Assembly: GCA_001664005.1 (NCBI GenBank)
Contig: CP016093.1
Coordinates: forward strand, 3,587,031 to 3,651,030
Direction of reading: 5' to 3'
DNA length: 64,000 nucleotides
From: Rhizobiales bacterium NRL2
GTDB taxonomy: Bacteria; Pseudomonadota; Alphaproteobacteria; Minwuiales; Minwuiaceae
Part shown: one piece after another, positions 5,717 to 30,482 of the stretch
Numbering within the stretch: position 1 is the first letter of the stretch
Layout of the letters: each line of letters begins with the position of its first letter
The notes under the pieces: model-generated
Database searches by the model: none
Seen by the model: the letters and a program-made list of their open reading frames with translations, nothing else
Told to the model about the DNA's origin: nothing
Translations under genes and position numbers: made by a program

Positions 5717-6485
5717 AGTCGGGCTTGCGCTTCTCGACGAAGGCGCGCGTGCCTTCGCGCCGGTCCTCGCTGTCGAAACAGCGGCCATAGGCGTCCAGCT
5801 CGAACTCGCGCGCGGTGGCGAAGTCCATCTCCAGCGACGCGTTGAGCACGGTCTTGAGCTCGCGCATGGCGACGGGACTGTAGTTTGCGAGGGTCTCGAC
5901 GACCTCGGCGGTTTCCTTCTCCAGATCATCCGGTTCGGCGAGCCGGTTGACCAGGCCGAGCTGGAAGGCGCGCTCGGCTGAGAAGCGGTCGCCCAGCAGG
6001 CAGATCGCCCGCGCCGTGGCCGGGCCGATCAGCCGGTCGATCAGCACCGTGCCGCCGGTGCCGGGAAAGATGCCCAGCCTGATCTCCGGATAGCCGAAGC
6101 TGGCCGCCGTGGAGGCGACGCGGATGTCGCAGGCCATGGCGATCAGCATGCCGCCGCCCAGGGCGTAGCCCTGGATCGAGGCCACCAGAGGCTGCGGCAT
6201 GCGCCGCATCTGGTCGTAGAGCCGCATGCCCGTCCAGCTCCGCGTCTCCGCCTCGCGGCGGGACATGCCGACCATCTCCTTGATGTCGGCGCCGGCCACG
6301 AAGGCCTTGTTTCCCGCGCCCTTCAGCACGATGACGCGGATCGCCGGATCGACCGCGACCTCCGCCAGCAGTTCGCTCATCTCCCGGAAGACGGTCGAGT
6401 TCAGCGCGTTGAGCTGGTCGGGGCGATTGATGGTGATCGTACCGACGCGGCCCGCCGGCTCGTAGAGCAGTGTCTCCCAGGCCAT
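5703..6485 (-). CDS. Enoyl-CoA hydratase/isomerase family protein
   Basis: The product is 260 residues from the ATG at 6485, which gives the normal crotonase N-terminus (MAWETLLYEPAGRVGTITIN). The reading frame stays open upstream but that stretch overlaps the dioxygenase gene and is not expected to be translated. Oxyanion-hole and CoA-binding elements are seen: KAFVAGADIKEM near residue 65 and GYALGGGMLIAMACD near 105. The Glu-containing segment GYPEIRLGIFPGTGG follows, as in true enoyl-CoA hydratases. It likely hydrates 2-enoyl-CoA in fatty-acid or amino-acid oxidation. It starts 5 bp after the stop of the TauD-type gene, so the two form an operon. Confidence 0.9.
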   Translation of the reverse strand: MAWETLLYEPAGRVGTITINRPDQLNALNSTVFREMSELLAEVAVDPAIRVIVLKGAGNKAFVAGADIKEMVGMSRREAETRSWTGMRLYDQMRRMPQPLVASIQGYALGGGMLIAMACDIRVASTAASFGYPEIRLGIFPGTGGTVLIDRLIGPATARAICLLGDRFSAERAFQLGLVNRLAEPDDLEKETAEVVETLANYSPVAMRELKTVLNASLEMDFATAREFELDAYGRCFDSEDRREGTRAFVEKRKPDFRGR

Positions 6486-24135: not shown

Positions 24136-24834
24136 ATGTTCTACCGTATTTTTGCGAGCGCCCTGGTCGCCGGGGTGCTCGCGGGGCTGTTCGTGTCCGT
24201 GCTGCAGCAGTTCACGACCGTGCCCATCATCGTGCAGGCGGAGAGCTATGAGAGCGCTCCGGCTGCAGGGGACTCTCACGCCCACGGTCCCGGCGAGGAA
24301 GAAGCGCACGACCACGGCGGCGGTTGGGCGCCGGCCGATGGCGGGGAGCGGATATTCTACACTGCCCTGTCCTCCGTCCTCATCGCCGCGGGCTGGGGCC
24401 TGTTGCTGGTCGCACTCATCGCACTGAGCGGACGCCGGATCGACGGCAAGACCGGCGTGCTCTGGGGCGCGGCGGGTTTCGTCGCGACGGCGCTGGCGCC
24501 CGGCGCAGGGCTGCCACCCGAACTGCCGGGCACCATGGCCGCCGAAGTCACGGCGCGTCAGGTCTGGTGGGTCGCCACTTTGGTCGCGACAGGCGCCGCC
24601 CTCTGGCTGCTGGTCCTGGCCAGGGCGACAATCTGGAAAGGGGCCGGCGTTCTCCTGCTGATCGTCCCTCACGCGGTGGGCGCTCCCCAGCCGGACCATT
24701 TCGGCGGCGCCGTTCCACCGGAGCTGGCCGCCCATTTCGTCGCCACATCACTCGCCGTCTCAGCCGCCTTCTGGGTCCTGCTGGGGTGGCTGGCCGGCGC
24801 GATGTGGGACAAACTGGAACCCAGTGGAGACTGA
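24136..24834 (+). CDS. cbtA: Cobalt transporter subunit CbtA
   Basis: A 232-residue membrane protein with five or six hydrophobic helices. The N-terminal helix is FYRIFASALVAGVLAGLFVS, as in CbtA. A His-rich extracytoplasmic loop (DSHAHGPGEEEAHDHGGG, about residues 47-64) may hold cobalt. Later segments LPPELPGTMAAEVTARQVWW and VGAPQPDHFGGAVPPELAAHF are characteristic family motifs. Start ATG at 24136 lies 4 bp after the cbtB stop. It is expected to import Co2+ for cobalamin synthesis under riboswitch control. Confidence 0.93.
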   Translation: MFYRIFASALVAGVLAGLFVSVLQQFTTVPIIVQAESYESAPAAGDSHAHGPGEEEAHDHGGGWAPADGGERIFYTALSSVLIAAGWGLLLVALIALSGRRIDGKTGVLWGAAGFVATALAPGAGLPPELPGTMAAEVTARQVWWVATLVATGAALWLLVLARATIWKGAGVLLLIVPHAVGAPQPDHFGGAVPPELAAHFVATSLAVSAAFWVLLGWLAGAMWDKLEPSGD

Positions 24835-24838
24835 AACC

Positions 24839-25900
24839 ATGAGTACCGCATCGGGCAAGATCCCGGCGACCGTCGTCACCGGCTTTCTCGGCGCCGGCAA
24901 GACGACGCTGATCCGACACCTGCTGCAGAATGCCGGTGGCAAACGCATCGCCCTGATCATCAACGAATTCGGCGACCTGGGCGTCGACGGCGAAGTGCTG
25001 AAGGGCTGCGGCGAGGAAACCTGCAGTGAGGACGACATCGTGGAACTGGCGAACGGCTGCATCTGCTGCACGGTCGCCGACGATTTCATCCCCACCATGA
25101 CCGCCCTGCTGGAGCGCGAGGTCCGGCCCGACCACATCGTCATCGAGACCTCCGGGCTCGCCCTGCCCCAGCCCCTGGTGAAGGCGTTCAACTGGCCCGA
25201 CATCCGCACGCGCGTGACGGTCGACGGCGTGGTCACCGTGGTCGACGGCGCGGCAGTGGCCGAGGGCCGCTTCGCGCACGACGAGGCGGCGCTGGACCGC
25301 CAGCGGCTGTCCGACGAGATGCTGGACCACGAAACGCCGCTTTCGGAGCTGTTCGAGGATCAGCTCGGCTGCGCCGACATCGTTGTGATCAACAAGACCG
25401 ACCTGCTGGGCGAAGGCGGCCTCGAGAAGGTCATGGCGGAGCTCCGGCACGACATCCGCCCCGGCGTGCAGGTGATCCGCTCCAGCCACGGCGCAGTGGC
25501 GCCTGCGGCGCTGCTCGGTCTGGGTATCGGCGCGGAGGACGACATCGCCAACCGTCCCACCCATCACGAACGGGAAGGCGCCGAGGACCACGACCATGAC
25601 GAGTTCGACAGCTTCGCCGTCGAACTGCCGGAGATCGACGATCCGAAGGCCTTCGCGAATCAGGTCGCTCAGGTCATCCGCGCGCACGACATCCTCAGGC
25701 TGAAGGGCTTCGCATCCGTCGCCGGCAAGCCGATGCGGCTGGTCGTGCAGGCCGTGGGGCCGCGCATCGACAGCTATTTCGACCGGCCCTGGCGCGCGGG
25801 CGAACCCCGGGGGACGAGGCTGGTCGTGATCGGCGAGACCGGCTTCGACCGCGCCGCGATCGAGGCCGACCTGCGCCGCGTCTACGACCGCGCCGCGTAG
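24839..25900 (+). CDS. cobW: CobW, GTP-dependent metallochaperone of cobalamin synthesis
   Basis: 353 residues from the ATG at 24839, five bases after the cbtA stop. Walker A is GFLGAGKTT (15-23). The metal site is Cys74-Ile-Cys76-Cys77 in NGCICCTV, the CxCC motif of COG0523 GTPases. A short acidic/His stretch EREGAEDHDHDEFD lies near residue 245 and the CobW C-terminal domain (KGFASVAGKPMRLVVQAVG) follows. Bacterial CobW is proposed to load Co2+ into the CobNST chelatase, which fits its place directly before cobN. Confidence 0.95.
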   Translation: MSTASGKIPATVVTGFLGAGKTTLIRHLLQNAGGKRIALIINEFGDLGVDGEVLKGCGEETCSEDDIVELANGCICCTVADDFIPTMTALLEREVRPDHIVIETSGLALPQPLVKAFNWPDIRTRVTVDGVVTVVDGAAVAEGRFAHDEAALDRQRLSDEMLDHETPLSELFEDQLGCADIVVINKTDLLGEGGLEKVMAELRHDIRPGVQVIRSSHGAVAPAALLGLGIGAEDDIANRPTHHEREGAEDHDHDEFDSFAVELPEIDDPKAFANQVAQVIRAHDILRLKGFASVAGKPMRLVVQAVGPRIDSYFDRPWRAGEPRGTRLVVIGETGFDRAAIEADLRRVYDRAA

Positions 25901-26024: not shown

Positions 26025-29000
26025 ATGCATCTCCTCCAGGCGCAGCCCGGACAGATCGACGACGGGACGGAAGCGGTCGACCTGGGCCAGAGCCCGGCCG
26101 ACGTCGTCTTCCTGACCGCCGCCGACACCGAGATCGCGGCGCTGGCCGCGGCGCGGCGGGAGCTTGGACCGGAAGCGCCGGCATTGCGTCTCGCCAATCT
26201 GATGTTCCTGAAGCACCCCATGTCGGTCGACCAGTATGTCGAGAACACCGTCGCCGGCGCGCGGCTGGTGGTCGGGCGTTTCCTGGGCGGCGTCGGCTAC
26301 TGGTCCTATTGTATCGAGGAGATCGCCACCGCCTGCCGGGCGAAGGGAATCGCCTTCGCCGCCCTCCCCGGCGACGAGAAGCCCGACGCCGACCTCAAGG
26401 CCGTCTCGACGCTCGACGGCGAACCATACGAGACGCTGCACCGGTATCTCCGCGAAGGCGGACCCGGCAACTACCGCCACTGGCTCGCGTTCTGCCGCAC
26501 AATGCTGGAAGGCGGCGAGGCCCCGCCCCCGCCGAAGCGACTCATGCGCGCCGGACTCTACTGGCCCGGCCGGGAAGCGCCCTCGCTCGCCGAGGTGCAG
26601 ACCGACCGCACCCGGCCGGCGGCCATGGTCGTCTTCTACCGCGCACTGTTGCAGGGCGGCTCGACGGAACCTGTCGACGCGCTGATCGGGGCGCTGGAAG
26701 AAGCCGGGCTGCAGCCCGTGCCGGTCTTCGTCGCCAGCCTCAAAGAGGAATTGTCGGCGGACGTGCTGCGCGGGATCATGGCTGAGGCGCGCCCCGACAT
26801 CGTCCTCAACCTGACCGCCTTCGCCGTCGGCAAGCCGGGCGAGGCGGACGGCTCGGCCGAGATCCTGAACACCGTGCTGGAATCGGAGGACACGCCGGTC
26901 CTGCAGGTCGTCATGGCCTCCAGCTCCGAGGCGGCCTGGTCGGAGTCCATGCAGGGCCTGGGACCGCGCGACATCGCCATGCACGTCGCCCTGCCGGAAG
27001 TGGACGGGCGGGTGCTCAGCCGGGCGATCTCCTTCAAGGCCGAGGCGTCGTTCGACGAGGACGTCCAGTGCGCCATCGTCACGCCGAAGCCCCGCACCGA
27101 CCGCGTCCGGTTCGTCGCCGAACTGGCGCGCAACTGGACGACGCTGCGCCGCAAGCCCGCTGCCGAACGCAAGATCGCGCTGGTGCTCGCCAACTACCCC
27201 AACCGCGACGGACGGCTCGCCAACGGCGTCGGGCTGGACACGCCCGCCAGCACGGTCGGGGTCCTCGCTGCGCTCGATGCCGCCGGCTACCGCATCGAGG
27301 GCGCGCCTGAGGCAAGCAAGGAGCTGATGGACCGGATCATGGCCGGTCCGACCAACTGGCTGACCGACCGGACCGAACGCGCCGGCGGCGTCGTGCTGCC
27401 GACGGACGACTACCGCATTTTCTGGGAAGGCCTGCCGGAAGACCTGCGGCGGACCGTCGAGGACCGCTGGGGCGCGCCGGAAACGGATCCGTTCCACGAT
27501 CCCGCCCGTGGTGGCTTCGTGCTCTCGGTCATCGAGTTCGGCAACGCCGTCGTCGCGGTACAGCCGGCGCGCGGCTATCAGATCGACCCGAAGGAGAGCT
27601 ATCACAGCCCCGATCTGCCGCCGCCGCACGGTTATCTCGCTTTCTACTGCTGGCTCCGGCGGTCCTTCGGCGCGGACGCCATCGTCCATCTGGGCAAGCA
27701 CGGCAATCTGGAATGGCTGCCGGGCAAGGCCCTGGCGCTTTCGGAATGCTGCTTCCCGGAGGCGGCGCTGGGCCCCCTGCCCCATCTCTATCCCTTCATC
27801 GTCAACGATCCGGGCGAGGGCTCCCAGGCCAAGCGCCGCAGCGCCGCCGTGATCGTCGACCACCTGACGCCGCCCATGACCCGCGCGGAGACCTATGGCG
27901 CGCTGAAGGACCTGGAAGCGCTTGTCGACGAGTACTACGACGCGGCCGGCCTCGACCGCCGCCGGCTGGAGCACCTGAAGAAGGAGATCCTGTCGCTGGT
28001 CCGCACCGAAGGGCTGGACGCCGATGCCGGCATCGCCCCTGGCGACGACGAGGAGGCCGCCTTTCAGGCGCTCGACAACTATCTCTGCGAACTCAAGGAA
28101 GCGCAGATCCGCGACGGCCTGCATATCTTCGGTCAGTCCCCGGACGGACGGCAGCGCCGCGACCTTCTGGTGGCGCTCGCCCGCGTGCCGGGCCGCAACC
28201 ACGGTTCGCTCCACCGCGCCATCGCCGACGATCTCGGACTGGGCTTCGATCCGCTGGACTGCGACCTCGGCGCGCCGTGGACGGGACCGGAACCGGATGC
28301 GCTGGCGAAGGTCGACAACGCCCCCTGGCGCACGGCGGGCGACACCGTCGAGCGGATCGAACTTCTGGCGGCCGAGTTGGTGGCACTCGTTGAGCTATCA
28401 CCCCCTCCCCGGCCCTCCCCCATCAAGGGGGAGGGAAAGGAAGAGACCGGCTTCAAATCCTCCCCCCTGGTGGGGGAGGTCGGCGCGGAGCGCCGGGTGG
28501 GGGGGATGCCCGAGTCAGCGAAGATTCTCGACCGTCTCGACAGCGCGCTCGCGCCGGCGCTGGATAGCTGCGGCGCGGCGGAGATGGCGGCGCTGCTGCG
28601 CGGCCTCGATGGCCGCTTCGTGCCGCCGGGACCGTCGGGCGCGCCGACGCGGGGCCGGGCCGACGTGCTGCCGACGGGCCGCAACTTCTTCTCCATCGAC
28701 AGCCGCGCCATGCCGACCGAAGCCGCGTGGACGCTGGGCTGGAAGTCCGCCAGCCGACTGATCGAGCGGCACATGCAGGACCAGGGCGACTGGCCCCGCA
28801 CCATGGCGCTGACCGCCTGGGGCACGTCAAACATGCGCACCGGCGGCGACGACATCGCCCAGGCGCTGGCCCTGGTCGGCGCCCGGCCCGTCTGGGAGAA
28901 GGCGTCCCGGCGCGTCACGGGCTTCGAGATCATTCCAGCCACGGCCCTGGGGCGGCCGCGCGTCGACGTCACGCTGCGCATCTCCGGCTTCTTCCGCGAC

Positions 29001-29861
29001 GCCTTTCCCGTGCAGATCGATCTGTTCGATTCGGCGGTGCGCGCGATCATGGCGCTGGACGAGAGCCCCGACGACAACCCGCTGGCCGCCGCCTTCGCCC
29101 GCGACGCAGCGCAACTCGCGGACGGCGGGCAGGACCGCGCCGAGGCCGAACGCCGGGCGGGCTACCGCATCTTCGGCGCCAAGCCCGGCGCCTATGGCGC
29201 AGGGCTGCAGGCGCTGATCGACGAACGGCTGTGGGAGAACCGGGGCGATCTGGCCGACAGCTTCCTGAACTGGGGCGGCTACGCCTATGGCGCGGGCGCG
29301 GAGGGCGACCGGGCGCGCGGCGAACTGGAAACCCGGCTCGCCAACGTCGAGGCGGTTGTCCAGAACCAGGACAACCGCGAGCACGACATCCTCGATTCGG
29401 ACGACTACTACCAGTTCGAGGGCGGCATGAGCGCCGCGGTCACCCACCTGAGGGGCGCGGAACCGGTCAGCTATCACAATGACCATTCCCGGCCCGAACG
29501 TCCCGTCATCCGCACCCTGTCGGAGGAGGTCGGACGCGTCGTGCGTTCGCGCGCCGCGAACCCGAAATGGATCGAAGGCGTGATGCGCCACGGCTACAAG
29601 GGCGCCTTCGAAATCGCGGCGACGGTGGACTACCTCTTCGCCTTCGCGGCGACCACCAGCGCGGTCGGCTCGCACCATTTCGACCTGCTCTACCGCGCCT
29701 ATCTGGCCGACGATGCCGTGCGCGGCTTCATCGCCGAGCACAATCCGGCGGCGCTGAAGGAAATTGCGGCACGGCTGGACGAGGCGATCCGGCGCGGCTT
29801 CTGGCGCCCGCGGGCCAATGACGCCACAGTACGACTGAACGAACTGATCGAGGGAGGCTGA
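26025..29861 (+). CDS. cobN: Cobaltochelatase subunit CobN
   Basis: 1278 residues, the large subunit of the ATP-dependent aerobic cobaltochelatase that inserts Co2+ into hydrogenobyrinate a,c-diamide. The N-terminus MHLLQAQPGQIDDGTEAVDL is typical. Core family blocks are present: RGYQIDPKESYHSPDLPPPH, IVHLGKHGNLEWLPGK, and, near the end, NDHSRPERPVIRTLSEEVGR with VDYLFAFAATTSAVGSHH. At about residues 790-828 the protein carries a Pro/Gly-rich stretch (SPPPRPSPIKGEG, then SPLVGEVGAERRVGG) coded by an inserted palindromic DNA element. This stretch is foreign to the family and likely sits in a surface loop. Partners CobS and CobT are not in the window. Four bases separate it from cobO. Confidence 0.97.
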   Translation: MHLLQAQPGQIDDGTEAVDLGQSPADVVFLTAADTEIAALAAARRELGPEAPALRLANLMFLKHPMSVDQYVENTVAGARLVVGRFLGGVGYWSYCIEEIATACRAKGIAFAALPGDEKPDADLKAVSTLDGEPYETLHRYLREGGPGNYRHWLAFCRTMLEGGEAPPPPKRLMRAGLYWPGREAPSLAEVQTDRTRPAAMVVFYRALLQGGSTEPVDALIGALEEAGLQPVPVFVASLKEELSADVLRGIMAEARPDIVLNLTAFAVGKPGEADGSAEILNTVLESEDTPVLQVVMASSSEAAWSESMQGLGPRDIAMHVALPEVDGRVLSRAISFKAEASFDEDVQCAIVTPKPRTDRVRFVAELARNWTTLRRKPAAERKIALVLANYPNRDGRLANGVGLDTPASTVGVLAALDAAGYRIEGAPEASKELMDRIMAGPTNWLTDRTERAGGVVLPTDDYRIFWEGLPEDLRRTVEDRWGAPETDPFHDPARGGFVLSVIEFGNAVVAVQPARGYQIDPKESYHSPDLPPPHGYLAFYCWLRRSFGADAIVHLGKHGNLEWLPGKALALSECCFPEAALGPLPHLYPFIVNDPGEGSQAKRRSAAVIVDHLTPPMTRAETYGALKDLEALVDEYYDAAGLDRRRLEHLKKEILSLVRTEGLDADAGIAPGDDEEAAFQALDNYLCELKEAQIRDGLHIFGQSPDGRQRRDLLVALARVPGRNHGSLHRAIADDLGLGFDPLDCDLGAPWTGPEPDALAKVDNAPWRTAGDTVERIELLAAELVALVELSPPPRPSPIKGEGKEETGFKSSPLVGEVGAERRVGGMPESAKILDRLDSALAPALDSCGAAEMAALLRGLDGRFVPPGPSGAPTRGRADVLPTGRNFFSIDSRAMPTEAAWTLGWKSASRLIERHMQDQGDWPRTMALTAWGTSNMRTGGDDIAQALALVGARPVWEKASRRVTGFEIIPATALGRPRVDVTLRISGFFRDAFPVQIDLFDSAVRAIMALDESPDDNPLAAAFARDAAQLADGGQDRAEAERRAGYRIFGAKPGAYGAGLQALIDERLWENRGDLADSFLNWGGYAYGAGAEGDRARGELETRLANVEAVVQNQDNREHDILDSDDYYQFEGGMSAAVTHLRGAEPVSYHNDHSRPERPVIRTLSEEVGRVVRSRAANPKWIEGVMRHGYKGAFEIAATVDYLFAFAATTSAVGSHHFDLLYRAYLADDAVRGFIAEHNPAALKEIAARLDEAIRRGFWRPRANDATVRLNELIEGG
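28400..28512. repeat. Palindromic element inserted in frame inside cobN
   Basis: Two hairpins with 5-nt loops, CCCTCCCCC-ATCAA-GGGGGAGGG (28413-28435) and CCTCCCCC-CTGGT-GGGGGAGG (28459-28479), are followed by CGGCGC-GGA-GCGCCG (28481-28495) and a G run. The base pattern differs sharply from flanking codons. The insert keeps the cobN frame and adds about 38 residues. Short palindromic repeats of this look are known between genes in many alphaproteobacteria and, in Rickettsia, within genes. Confidence 0.8.
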
Positions 29862-29864
29862 CCG

Positions 29865-30482
29865 ATGGCCGAGCAAGAAGATCCCAACGCCCGCCACAAC
29901 GAGAAGATGGCCAAGAAGAAGGCCGCGCGGGACAAGATCATGGCCACCAAGACCGGCGAGAAGGGCCTGATCGTGGTCCACACCGGCAAGGGCAAGGGCA
30001 AGTCGACCGCCGCCTTCGGCATGATCTTCCGCTGTATCGCCCACGGCATGCGCTGCGCCGTGGTGCAGTTCATCAAGGGCGGCATGGACACCGGCGAGCG
30101 GCGTCTGATCGAGGAGCGCTTCTCCGACCTCTGCACCTTCGAGACCATGGGCGAGGGCTTCACCTGGGAGACCCAGGACCGCGAGCGCGACGTCGCCAAT
30201 GCCCGCGCCGCCTGGGAGCGCGCCAAGCAGCTCATCCTCGACCCGGAAGTGAAGATGGTCCTGCTGGACGAACTCAACATCGCGCTGCGCTACGACTACA
30301 TCCCGGTCGAGGAGATCGTCGATTTCCTGAAGAACGAGAAGCCCGAGATGACCCACGTCGTCATCACCGGCCGCAACGCCAAGGACGAACTGCTGGAGAT
30401 CGCGGATCTCGCCACCGAGATGACCATGCTCGCCCACCCCTTCCGCGCCGGCGTCAAGGCGCAGCAGGGCGTGGAGTTCTAG
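29865..30482 (+). CDS. cobO: Cob(I)yrinic acid a,c-diamide adenosyltransferase (CobO/BtuR type)
   Basis: 205 residues. It transfers the adenosyl group of ATP to cob(I)yrinate a,c-diamide or cobinamide. The P-loop variant is TGKGKGKSTAAFG (40-52), which in CobA/BtuR binds ATP in reversed orientation. Later blocks include VVQFIKGGMDTGERR, KMVLLDELNIALRYDY and HVVITGRNAKDELLEIADLATEM, all diagnostic. The basic N-terminus (NEKMAKKKAARDK) is typical of the alphaproteobacterial form. It is the last gene of the riboswitch-led unit, with a 39-bp repeat just after the stop. Confidence 0.95.
   Translation: MAEQEDPNARHNEKMAKKKAARDKIMATKTGEKGLIVVHTGKGKGKSTAAFGMIFRCIAHGMRCAVVQFIKGGMDTGERRLIEERFSDLCTFETMGEGFTWETQDRERDVANARAAWERAKQLILDPEVKMVLLDELNIALRYDYIPVEEIVDFLKNEKPEMTHVVITGRNAKDELLEIADLATEMTMLAHPFRAGVKAQQGVEF

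Follow-up and report, generated by a model that had tools for sequence, protein, structure and literature searches.

A REP-like palindromic repeat within the coding frame of the cobaltochelatase gene cobN in an alphaproteobacterial lineage

A palindromic DNA element lies in frame within cobN, the gene for the large subunit of the aerobic cobaltochelatase, in the genome of Rhizobiales bacterium NRL2 (G000). It is very probably a REP-like repeat that has been tolerated in a linker of CobN and, as such, a case of the known intragenic REP/RPE kind. The grounds for this reading are the identity of the repeat, its placement, the open frame, the selection on the remainder of cobN, the faster change of the insert and the low pLDDT of the modelled segment. 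In the mechanism that we propose, the block would be one dimeric copy of a REP-like repeat that, in this genus, is scattered chiefly over intervals between convergent or codirectional genes, and whose hairpin core also occurs in some of the Alphaproteobacteria. This copy would have entered cobN in the common ancestor of G000 and its sister species G004, where CobN has a short helix-to-helix linker immediately preceding its catalytic C-terminal part. As the repeat is GC-rich with mostly stop-free frames, and the net gain is a multiple of three, cobN would have stayed readable; the encoded peptide would form a protruding, flexible loop that is hardly constrained, if at all, with the rest of CobN under purifying selection. 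The case is a datable one, outside Rickettsia, of a mobile-type palindrome turned protein sequence, and the sister species lets the fate of the peptide be measured: the frame is kept, the sequence changes faster and the hairpins are damaged.

The palindromic block and its repeat family

The window, that is, the whole stretch of 64,000 nt analysed here, corresponds to positions 3,587,031-3,651,030 of the one-contig 4.70-Mb genome G000. In it cobN occupies 26025..29861 on the plus strand, between cobW (24824-25900) and cobO (29865-30482). The open reading frame encodes 1278 aa, which match Pfam PF02514 with 1309.9 bits and, over residues 1-1275, NCBIfam TIGR02257 (CobN) with 1646.1 bits against a cut-off of 822. 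The frame runs uninterrupted through the palindromic block. Together with the identification of the block as a repeat copy and its absence from five of six congeners (below), this upholds the view of the first-pass annotation that palindromic DNA was inserted in frame in cobN.

The block is a repeat dimer at 28401..28506 on the plus strand, delimited from the sequence and by BLAST, with both halves matched by a covariance model of the repeat (R1). It is laid out as left arm, hairpin, spacer, hairpins and right arm. The left outer arm (28401..28412) finds its pairing partner in the outer right-hand portion of the block, where the right outer arm lies at 28497..28506; both were recognized as inverted repeats and on folding. 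The same holds for hairpin 1 (28413..28435; 9-bp arms, loop ATCAA) and hairpin 2 (28459..28479; 8-bp arms, loop CTGGT), while hairpin 3 (28480..28496; seven pairs including one U-G, 3-nt loop) comes from folding. Direct reading and folding thereby reproduce the two 5-nt-loop hairpins and the third with a 3-nt loop that had been described at the outset. The two large hairpins can also pair mutually, over 21-nt arms at 90%. Of 200 dinucleotide shuffles, 199 fold less well than the whole block (z -3.9 for RNA; z -3.3 when folded as DNA). Hairpin 1 alone reaches z -4.1, and hairpins 2 and 3 alone are ordinary for their composition (z -0.81, with 44 of 200 shuffles equally good). A search of 28300-28620 against Rfam returned no family at gathering score, with 13 sub-threshold matches (best E 0.023). 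With regard to a MITE, the outer arms pair, and inspection of the flanks by eye found no clear target-site duplication.

CobN residues 792-827 (SPPPRPSPIKGEGKEETGFKSSPLVGEVGAERRVGG, 36 residues) are encoded by the repeat and the codon before it. The earlier figure of about 38 extra residues has to be revised to these 36, with a net gain of 32 relative to the congeners. Five of the six frames are free of stops across 28400-28506, as are 196 of the 240 frames over 40 repeat copies.

BLAST with the cobN block finds 29 places in G000, the block itself included. The hairpin pattern at one mismatch or fewer occurs at 19 sites of the whole genome (reversed control, 0); within the window, at two mismatches or fewer, it was found twice against 1.13 expected, a number within chance expectation, as 32 of 100 shuffles had as many. 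The covariance model, built from 27 units, gives 48 matches in G000, and 38, 34, 20, 14, 2 and 0 in the congeners G001, G004, G003, G002, G005 and G006, respectively. A unit is either of the full form, 60-69 nt long, or a half unit of 38-52 nt, the latter lying in close pairs.

The 48 model matches of G000 and three places found by BLAST only form 40 clusters, which we located with a gene caller based on hexamers and with a flank test made independently of ORF calls, its score threshold being our own choice. Of these, 34 are intergenic (21 between convergent and 11 between codirectional genes, one divergent, one of unassigned orientation), four lie at the 5' edge of an ORF call, and two, those in cobN and cobK, lie inside genes, with same-strand coding on both sides. 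In G004 the flank test covered 31 clusters, comprising 32 of the 34 matches; the cobN match is the 33rd, and one further match was left out. It marks a single cluster as in-gene, that of cobK. Four other G004 clusters run into the 5' part of an ORF call; the one that lies 346 nt inside its call was judged by eye to be upstream of the true start. The mapping of same-consensus repeats suggested by the first-pass annotation thus reveals copies throughout the genome and a second gene hit, cobK. Gene calls were made by script, and some of the genomes compared are fragmented.

REPs are defined in general as usually extragenic, palindromic, short and of common consensus (accessible part of PMC12306157). 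The repeat shows one consensus repeated genome-wide (the 48 matches to one model in G000), is palindromic and stem-loop forming according to its inverted repeats and folding, and has 38 of 40 G000 clusters outside gene bodies as called by script. Its half units are 38-52 nt and its full units 60-69 nt long; for REPs of E. coli the same partial source gives 14-40 nt. The element would have moved by copying; the Y1 (RAYT) transposase domain PF01797 was found in none of the seven genus genomes, against 5 of 14 in the control rings.

The exact hairpin core is present in 74 of 372 genomes of the class, with at most one hit in any genome for the reversed control; as these class-wide counts may lump different repeats, it is the family, or several look-alikes, that extends past the genus. 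The top count among the 372, 143 copies of the core, belongs to G332, a 4.3-Mb genome of another family. Separately, a second palindromic family, GTGTCATGCCCGCC...GCGGGCATCCGG, lies on the minus strand of the window at ~30654 and ~31796 and resembles CGTC-type REPs. Its core has 23 matches, one of them listed twice from two overlapping stretches, against 3.7 expected in 290 kb of G000.

Position and age of the insert in CobN

An AlphaFold2 model of CobN residues 546-1278, made with 28 sequences (mean pLDDT 70, pTM 0.60), places the insert in a low-confidence loop between two helices, where the first-pass annotation had proposed to look for a surface loop. Model residues 247-275 (CobN 792-820) have pLDDT < 50 and lie between helices 228-244 and 284-316; the first 100 residues of the fragment are unreliable. 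Because another stretch (315-350) also has low pLDDT and the model is of moderate quality, the low pLDDT is no proof of disorder. In Foldseek, CobN of M. tuberculosis (7c6o) is listed first with a poor whole-length superposition (rmsd 20.7), and the C-terminal CobN part 9fpc superposes with rmsd 1.2 over 383 columns. Sequence comparison shows about 12 residues at the position of the insert in the CobN of PDB entry 9uk9. The suggestion that the segment is tolerated as a loop is supported; that it is tolerated is inferred from cobN having kept an open frame and being under purifying selection elsewhere.

The insert is common to G000 and G004 and missing from G001, G002, G003, G005 and G006. The CobN of G004 is 96% identical to that of G000, and those of the other five congeners are about 71% identical. 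This distribution dates the insertion, as an alignment of relatives had been expected to do: the repeat entered after the pair left the other congeners and before the sister split. More widely, 97 of the 99 CobN regions read, the five congeners among them, lack the insert. The linker between two anchors measures 62-68 aa in 88 of the 99, and 97 and 95 aa in G000 and G004, respectively.

We also compared 96 full-length CobN sequences, mostly the nearest matches of one search and no random sample. Insertions of at least 30 residues among them amount to three events, all with perfect inverted repeats, whose arms measure 9, 10 and 21 bp (6 bp in the damaged G004 copy); as background, arms of at least 9 occur in 25 of the 3309 windows (108 nt each) taken from cobN genes, foreign inserts included. 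In Meinhardsimonia xiamenensis (G389:C12:36383-36532, locus L075) a 44-residue insertion occupies the same place in CobN as in G000 and belongs to a different genome-wide palindromic repeat (29 matches, three being the insert and 26 further ones). Tropicimonas sediminicola (L072) has a 32-residue insertion near residue 763 with a perfect palindrome of 21-bp arms at 6333-6377 of the locus, of which no second copy was found within the 11.8 kb of that locus. A shorter, 30-nt palindrome lies at the CobN linker of a Rhodobiaceae MAG (L138). It fits the printed features of CGTC REPs, namely the CGTC end, a 9-bp stem starting with AT, a 5-nt loop and a CCA tail, and has no other copy in its genome at three mismatches or fewer. 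The three long inserts and this palindrome show no mutual similarity at E 0.01. The palindromes at the CobN linker region in unrelated bacteria mark sites at which so large an enzyme can accommodate insertions.

Smaller length changes are of other kinds. The insertions of 14 and 17 aa in L117 and L109 are not palindromic. The small variants of Rhodobacteraceae (DGGWGDV type) are not established as a repeat: a 63-nt query matches only cobN in its own genome, G390, and gives partial matches of 21-30 nt in some of the other seven genomes. A survey of the class drew 385 genomes, 141 with a match. It contained 27 loci with a long or partial-looking match, 24 of them readable across the linker, and the linker is 60-63 aa in 23 and 73 aa in one (L248); in none of the 30 other loci did the printed length exceed 68 aa. 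Given this near-constancy, a class-wide hotspot at the CobN linker was rejected as a general rule. Insertion in the CobN linker is rare, and the long insertions seen are palindromes. One CobN of the set, L263 (G252:C390), has an in-frame stop at codon 335 of frame 1, before the linker, and continues after it in the same frame.

Divergence, cobK and competing explanations

Between G000 and G004, the 1242 codons outside residues 792-827, taken as the borders of the insert, differ at 32, 22 and 133 first, second and third positions, and 42 amino acids differ. This strong third-position bias indicates that cobN outside the insert has been under purifying selection since the sister split. The 34 codons compared inside the borders have 4, 1 and 5 differences, and six amino acids differ, so that the peptide diverges more than the rest of CobN (6/34 vs 42/1242 residues, Fisher p 0.001). 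Nucleotide divergence is 9.8% in the insert against 5.0% outside it and 10.7% at outside third positions. The codon-position pattern with strict borders is indistinguishable between insert and flanks (p 0.17, from 10 differences in two species). A version with residues 786-826, which takes in six residues of the host linker, gives 6/3/5, 8/39 amino acids and p 0.006, and was not relied on. Selection maintains cobN with the insert in place; that the insert itself is constrained little or not at all is likely, as judged from these few differences. In G004, a 6-nt in-frame deletion cuts hairpin 2, and hairpin 1 is mispaired (-14.5 vs -21.4 kcal/mol). We infer that the insertion is neutral or nearly so and that the enzyme works.

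The second gene hit, cobK, encodes precorrin-6A reductase. In G004 (locus L308) its product of 283 aa contains one repeat unit in frame, and its best NCBIfam match, of 224 bits in two stretches, falls just under the cut-off of 231. G000 has a longer repeat dimer at the same site (297746-297880) of its cobK (G000:C1:297281-298146; L055:2782-3647), with the two halves, N-terminal (profile positions 2-159) and C-terminal (176-242), in different frames. Sequencing is error-prone in long runs of C and G, and the frame split may be either a real break or an error in such runs; recoding is less likely. The repeat segment is absent from all three cobK sequences aligned, out of six other cobK loci outside G000 and G004. 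Both in-gene copies fall in B12 genes, which neutrality alone does not explain. The chance of a second in-gene copy falling in a cobalamin gene is about 0.5-0.9%, assuming roughly 20-40 cobalamin genes of about 4400, which is our own estimate; as the coincidence was noticed afterwards, it is a lead and no test. It points to a connection, open to testing, between B12 genes and the spread of the repeat. A broader proposition, which we regard as rather doubtful, is that unrelated palindromic repeats land time and again in the stretch preceding the catalytic part of CobN in Alphaproteobacteria and that, in this lineage, B12 genes are the preferred or only coding targets of the repeat, whose insertions would repeatedly remodel B12 enzymes and, in the cobK of G000, perhaps break or recode them.

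Alternatively, the B12 genes of this lineage might be relaxed or decaying, in which case repeats would accumulate there irrespective of any structural tolerance of the sites. The shared B12 role of the two genes hit fits this, as do the split frames of the G000 cobK and the differences between the sister cobK sequences (13/151 and 10/80 amino acids), which exceed those of cobN. We nevertheless think it unlikely: the third-position bias of cobN is that of a gene maintained since the sister split, the adjoining cobW and cobO both score above their family cut-offs in profile matches, and the break in cobK may be a sequencing error.

The insert might also have been put to use, with an mRNA hairpin slowing translation between two parts of CobN or protecting the message, or a peptide binding CobS/CobT or CobW. 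Such a role would suit the very stable fold, the modelled position in a helix-helix linker before the catalytic part and the presence of a copy in cobK, and the codon positions under strict borders lend no support to neutrality. It is improbable given that the pairing of hairpin 1 is broken and hairpin 2 shortened in G004, that the peptide changes faster than the remaining CobN, and that five of the six congeners do without the insert. An assembly or sequencing artefact that keeps the frame by chance would draw on the error-prone C/G runs and on the frame broken at the same repeat in the G000 cobK, and is very unlikely, since two assemblies carry the cobN insert with substitutions between them; this also answers the earlier concern that a sequencing error created the frame. 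That the segment is ancestral to CobN and was lost in other lineages is equally negligible, with a linker of near-constant length elsewhere and a segment that is itself a genomic repeat.

Relation to known palindromic repeats

The preferred reading, a REP-like repeat tolerated in the CobN linker, has precedents. In several species, GTAG and CGTC REPs lie within genes, where they add 20 to 82 residues and were proposed to sit in linkers or loops; in two Xanthomonas species recB was hit at about the same site by a REP (PMC3733652, in its accessible part). The RPE, a palindromic element of about 105-150 bp, lies in frame in conserved genes (PMC2229807 and PMC10969869, both in part), and a gmk enzyme with an RPE inserted stayed active (same part of PMC2229807). 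These intragenic REPs, along with the ERIC and Neisseria elements fused in frame (PMC2229807, in part), speak against the initial remark that in-gene palindromes are rare outside Rickettsia. A search of an open library of papers returned none on a CobN with a palindromic in-frame insertion, and two for GGGGGAGG with palindromic repeats in proteobacteria.

Like the GTAG and CGTC REPs, which favour 3' ends, the repeat is, as far as the available text on these goes, a short palindrome, frequently paired into dimers of opposite orientation, that lies for the most part between convergent or codirectional genes and sometimes within genes. It differs from both in that visual inspection of the 27 aligned units with their flanks revealed neither a GTAG nor a CGTC end tag, and from CGTC REPs in a stem that, also by eye, does not start with AT pairs. 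CGTC REPs apparently have no dedicated transposase (accessible part of PMC3733652). The lack of a Y1 transposase in the genus fits these and not the RAYT-linked GTAG REPs. It also sets the repeat apart from BIMEs, whose sequence presumably differs as well. What is shared with BIMEs, which are pairs or clusters of REPs (PMC3733652, in part), is the occurrence of units as close pairs.

The in-frame insertion in a conserved gene (cobN, and cobK of G004) recalls the RPE; the likeness is one of description, just 2 of the 40 clusters here are intragenic, and the host is not a Rickettsia. Br-REP1 and Br-REP2 of Bradyrhizobium are likewise alphaproteobacterial palindromes near 3' ends, although their printed consensus differs and the available portion of the source (PMC5082802) describes them in intergenic regions; Br-REP1 is there part of a unit of three stem-loops.
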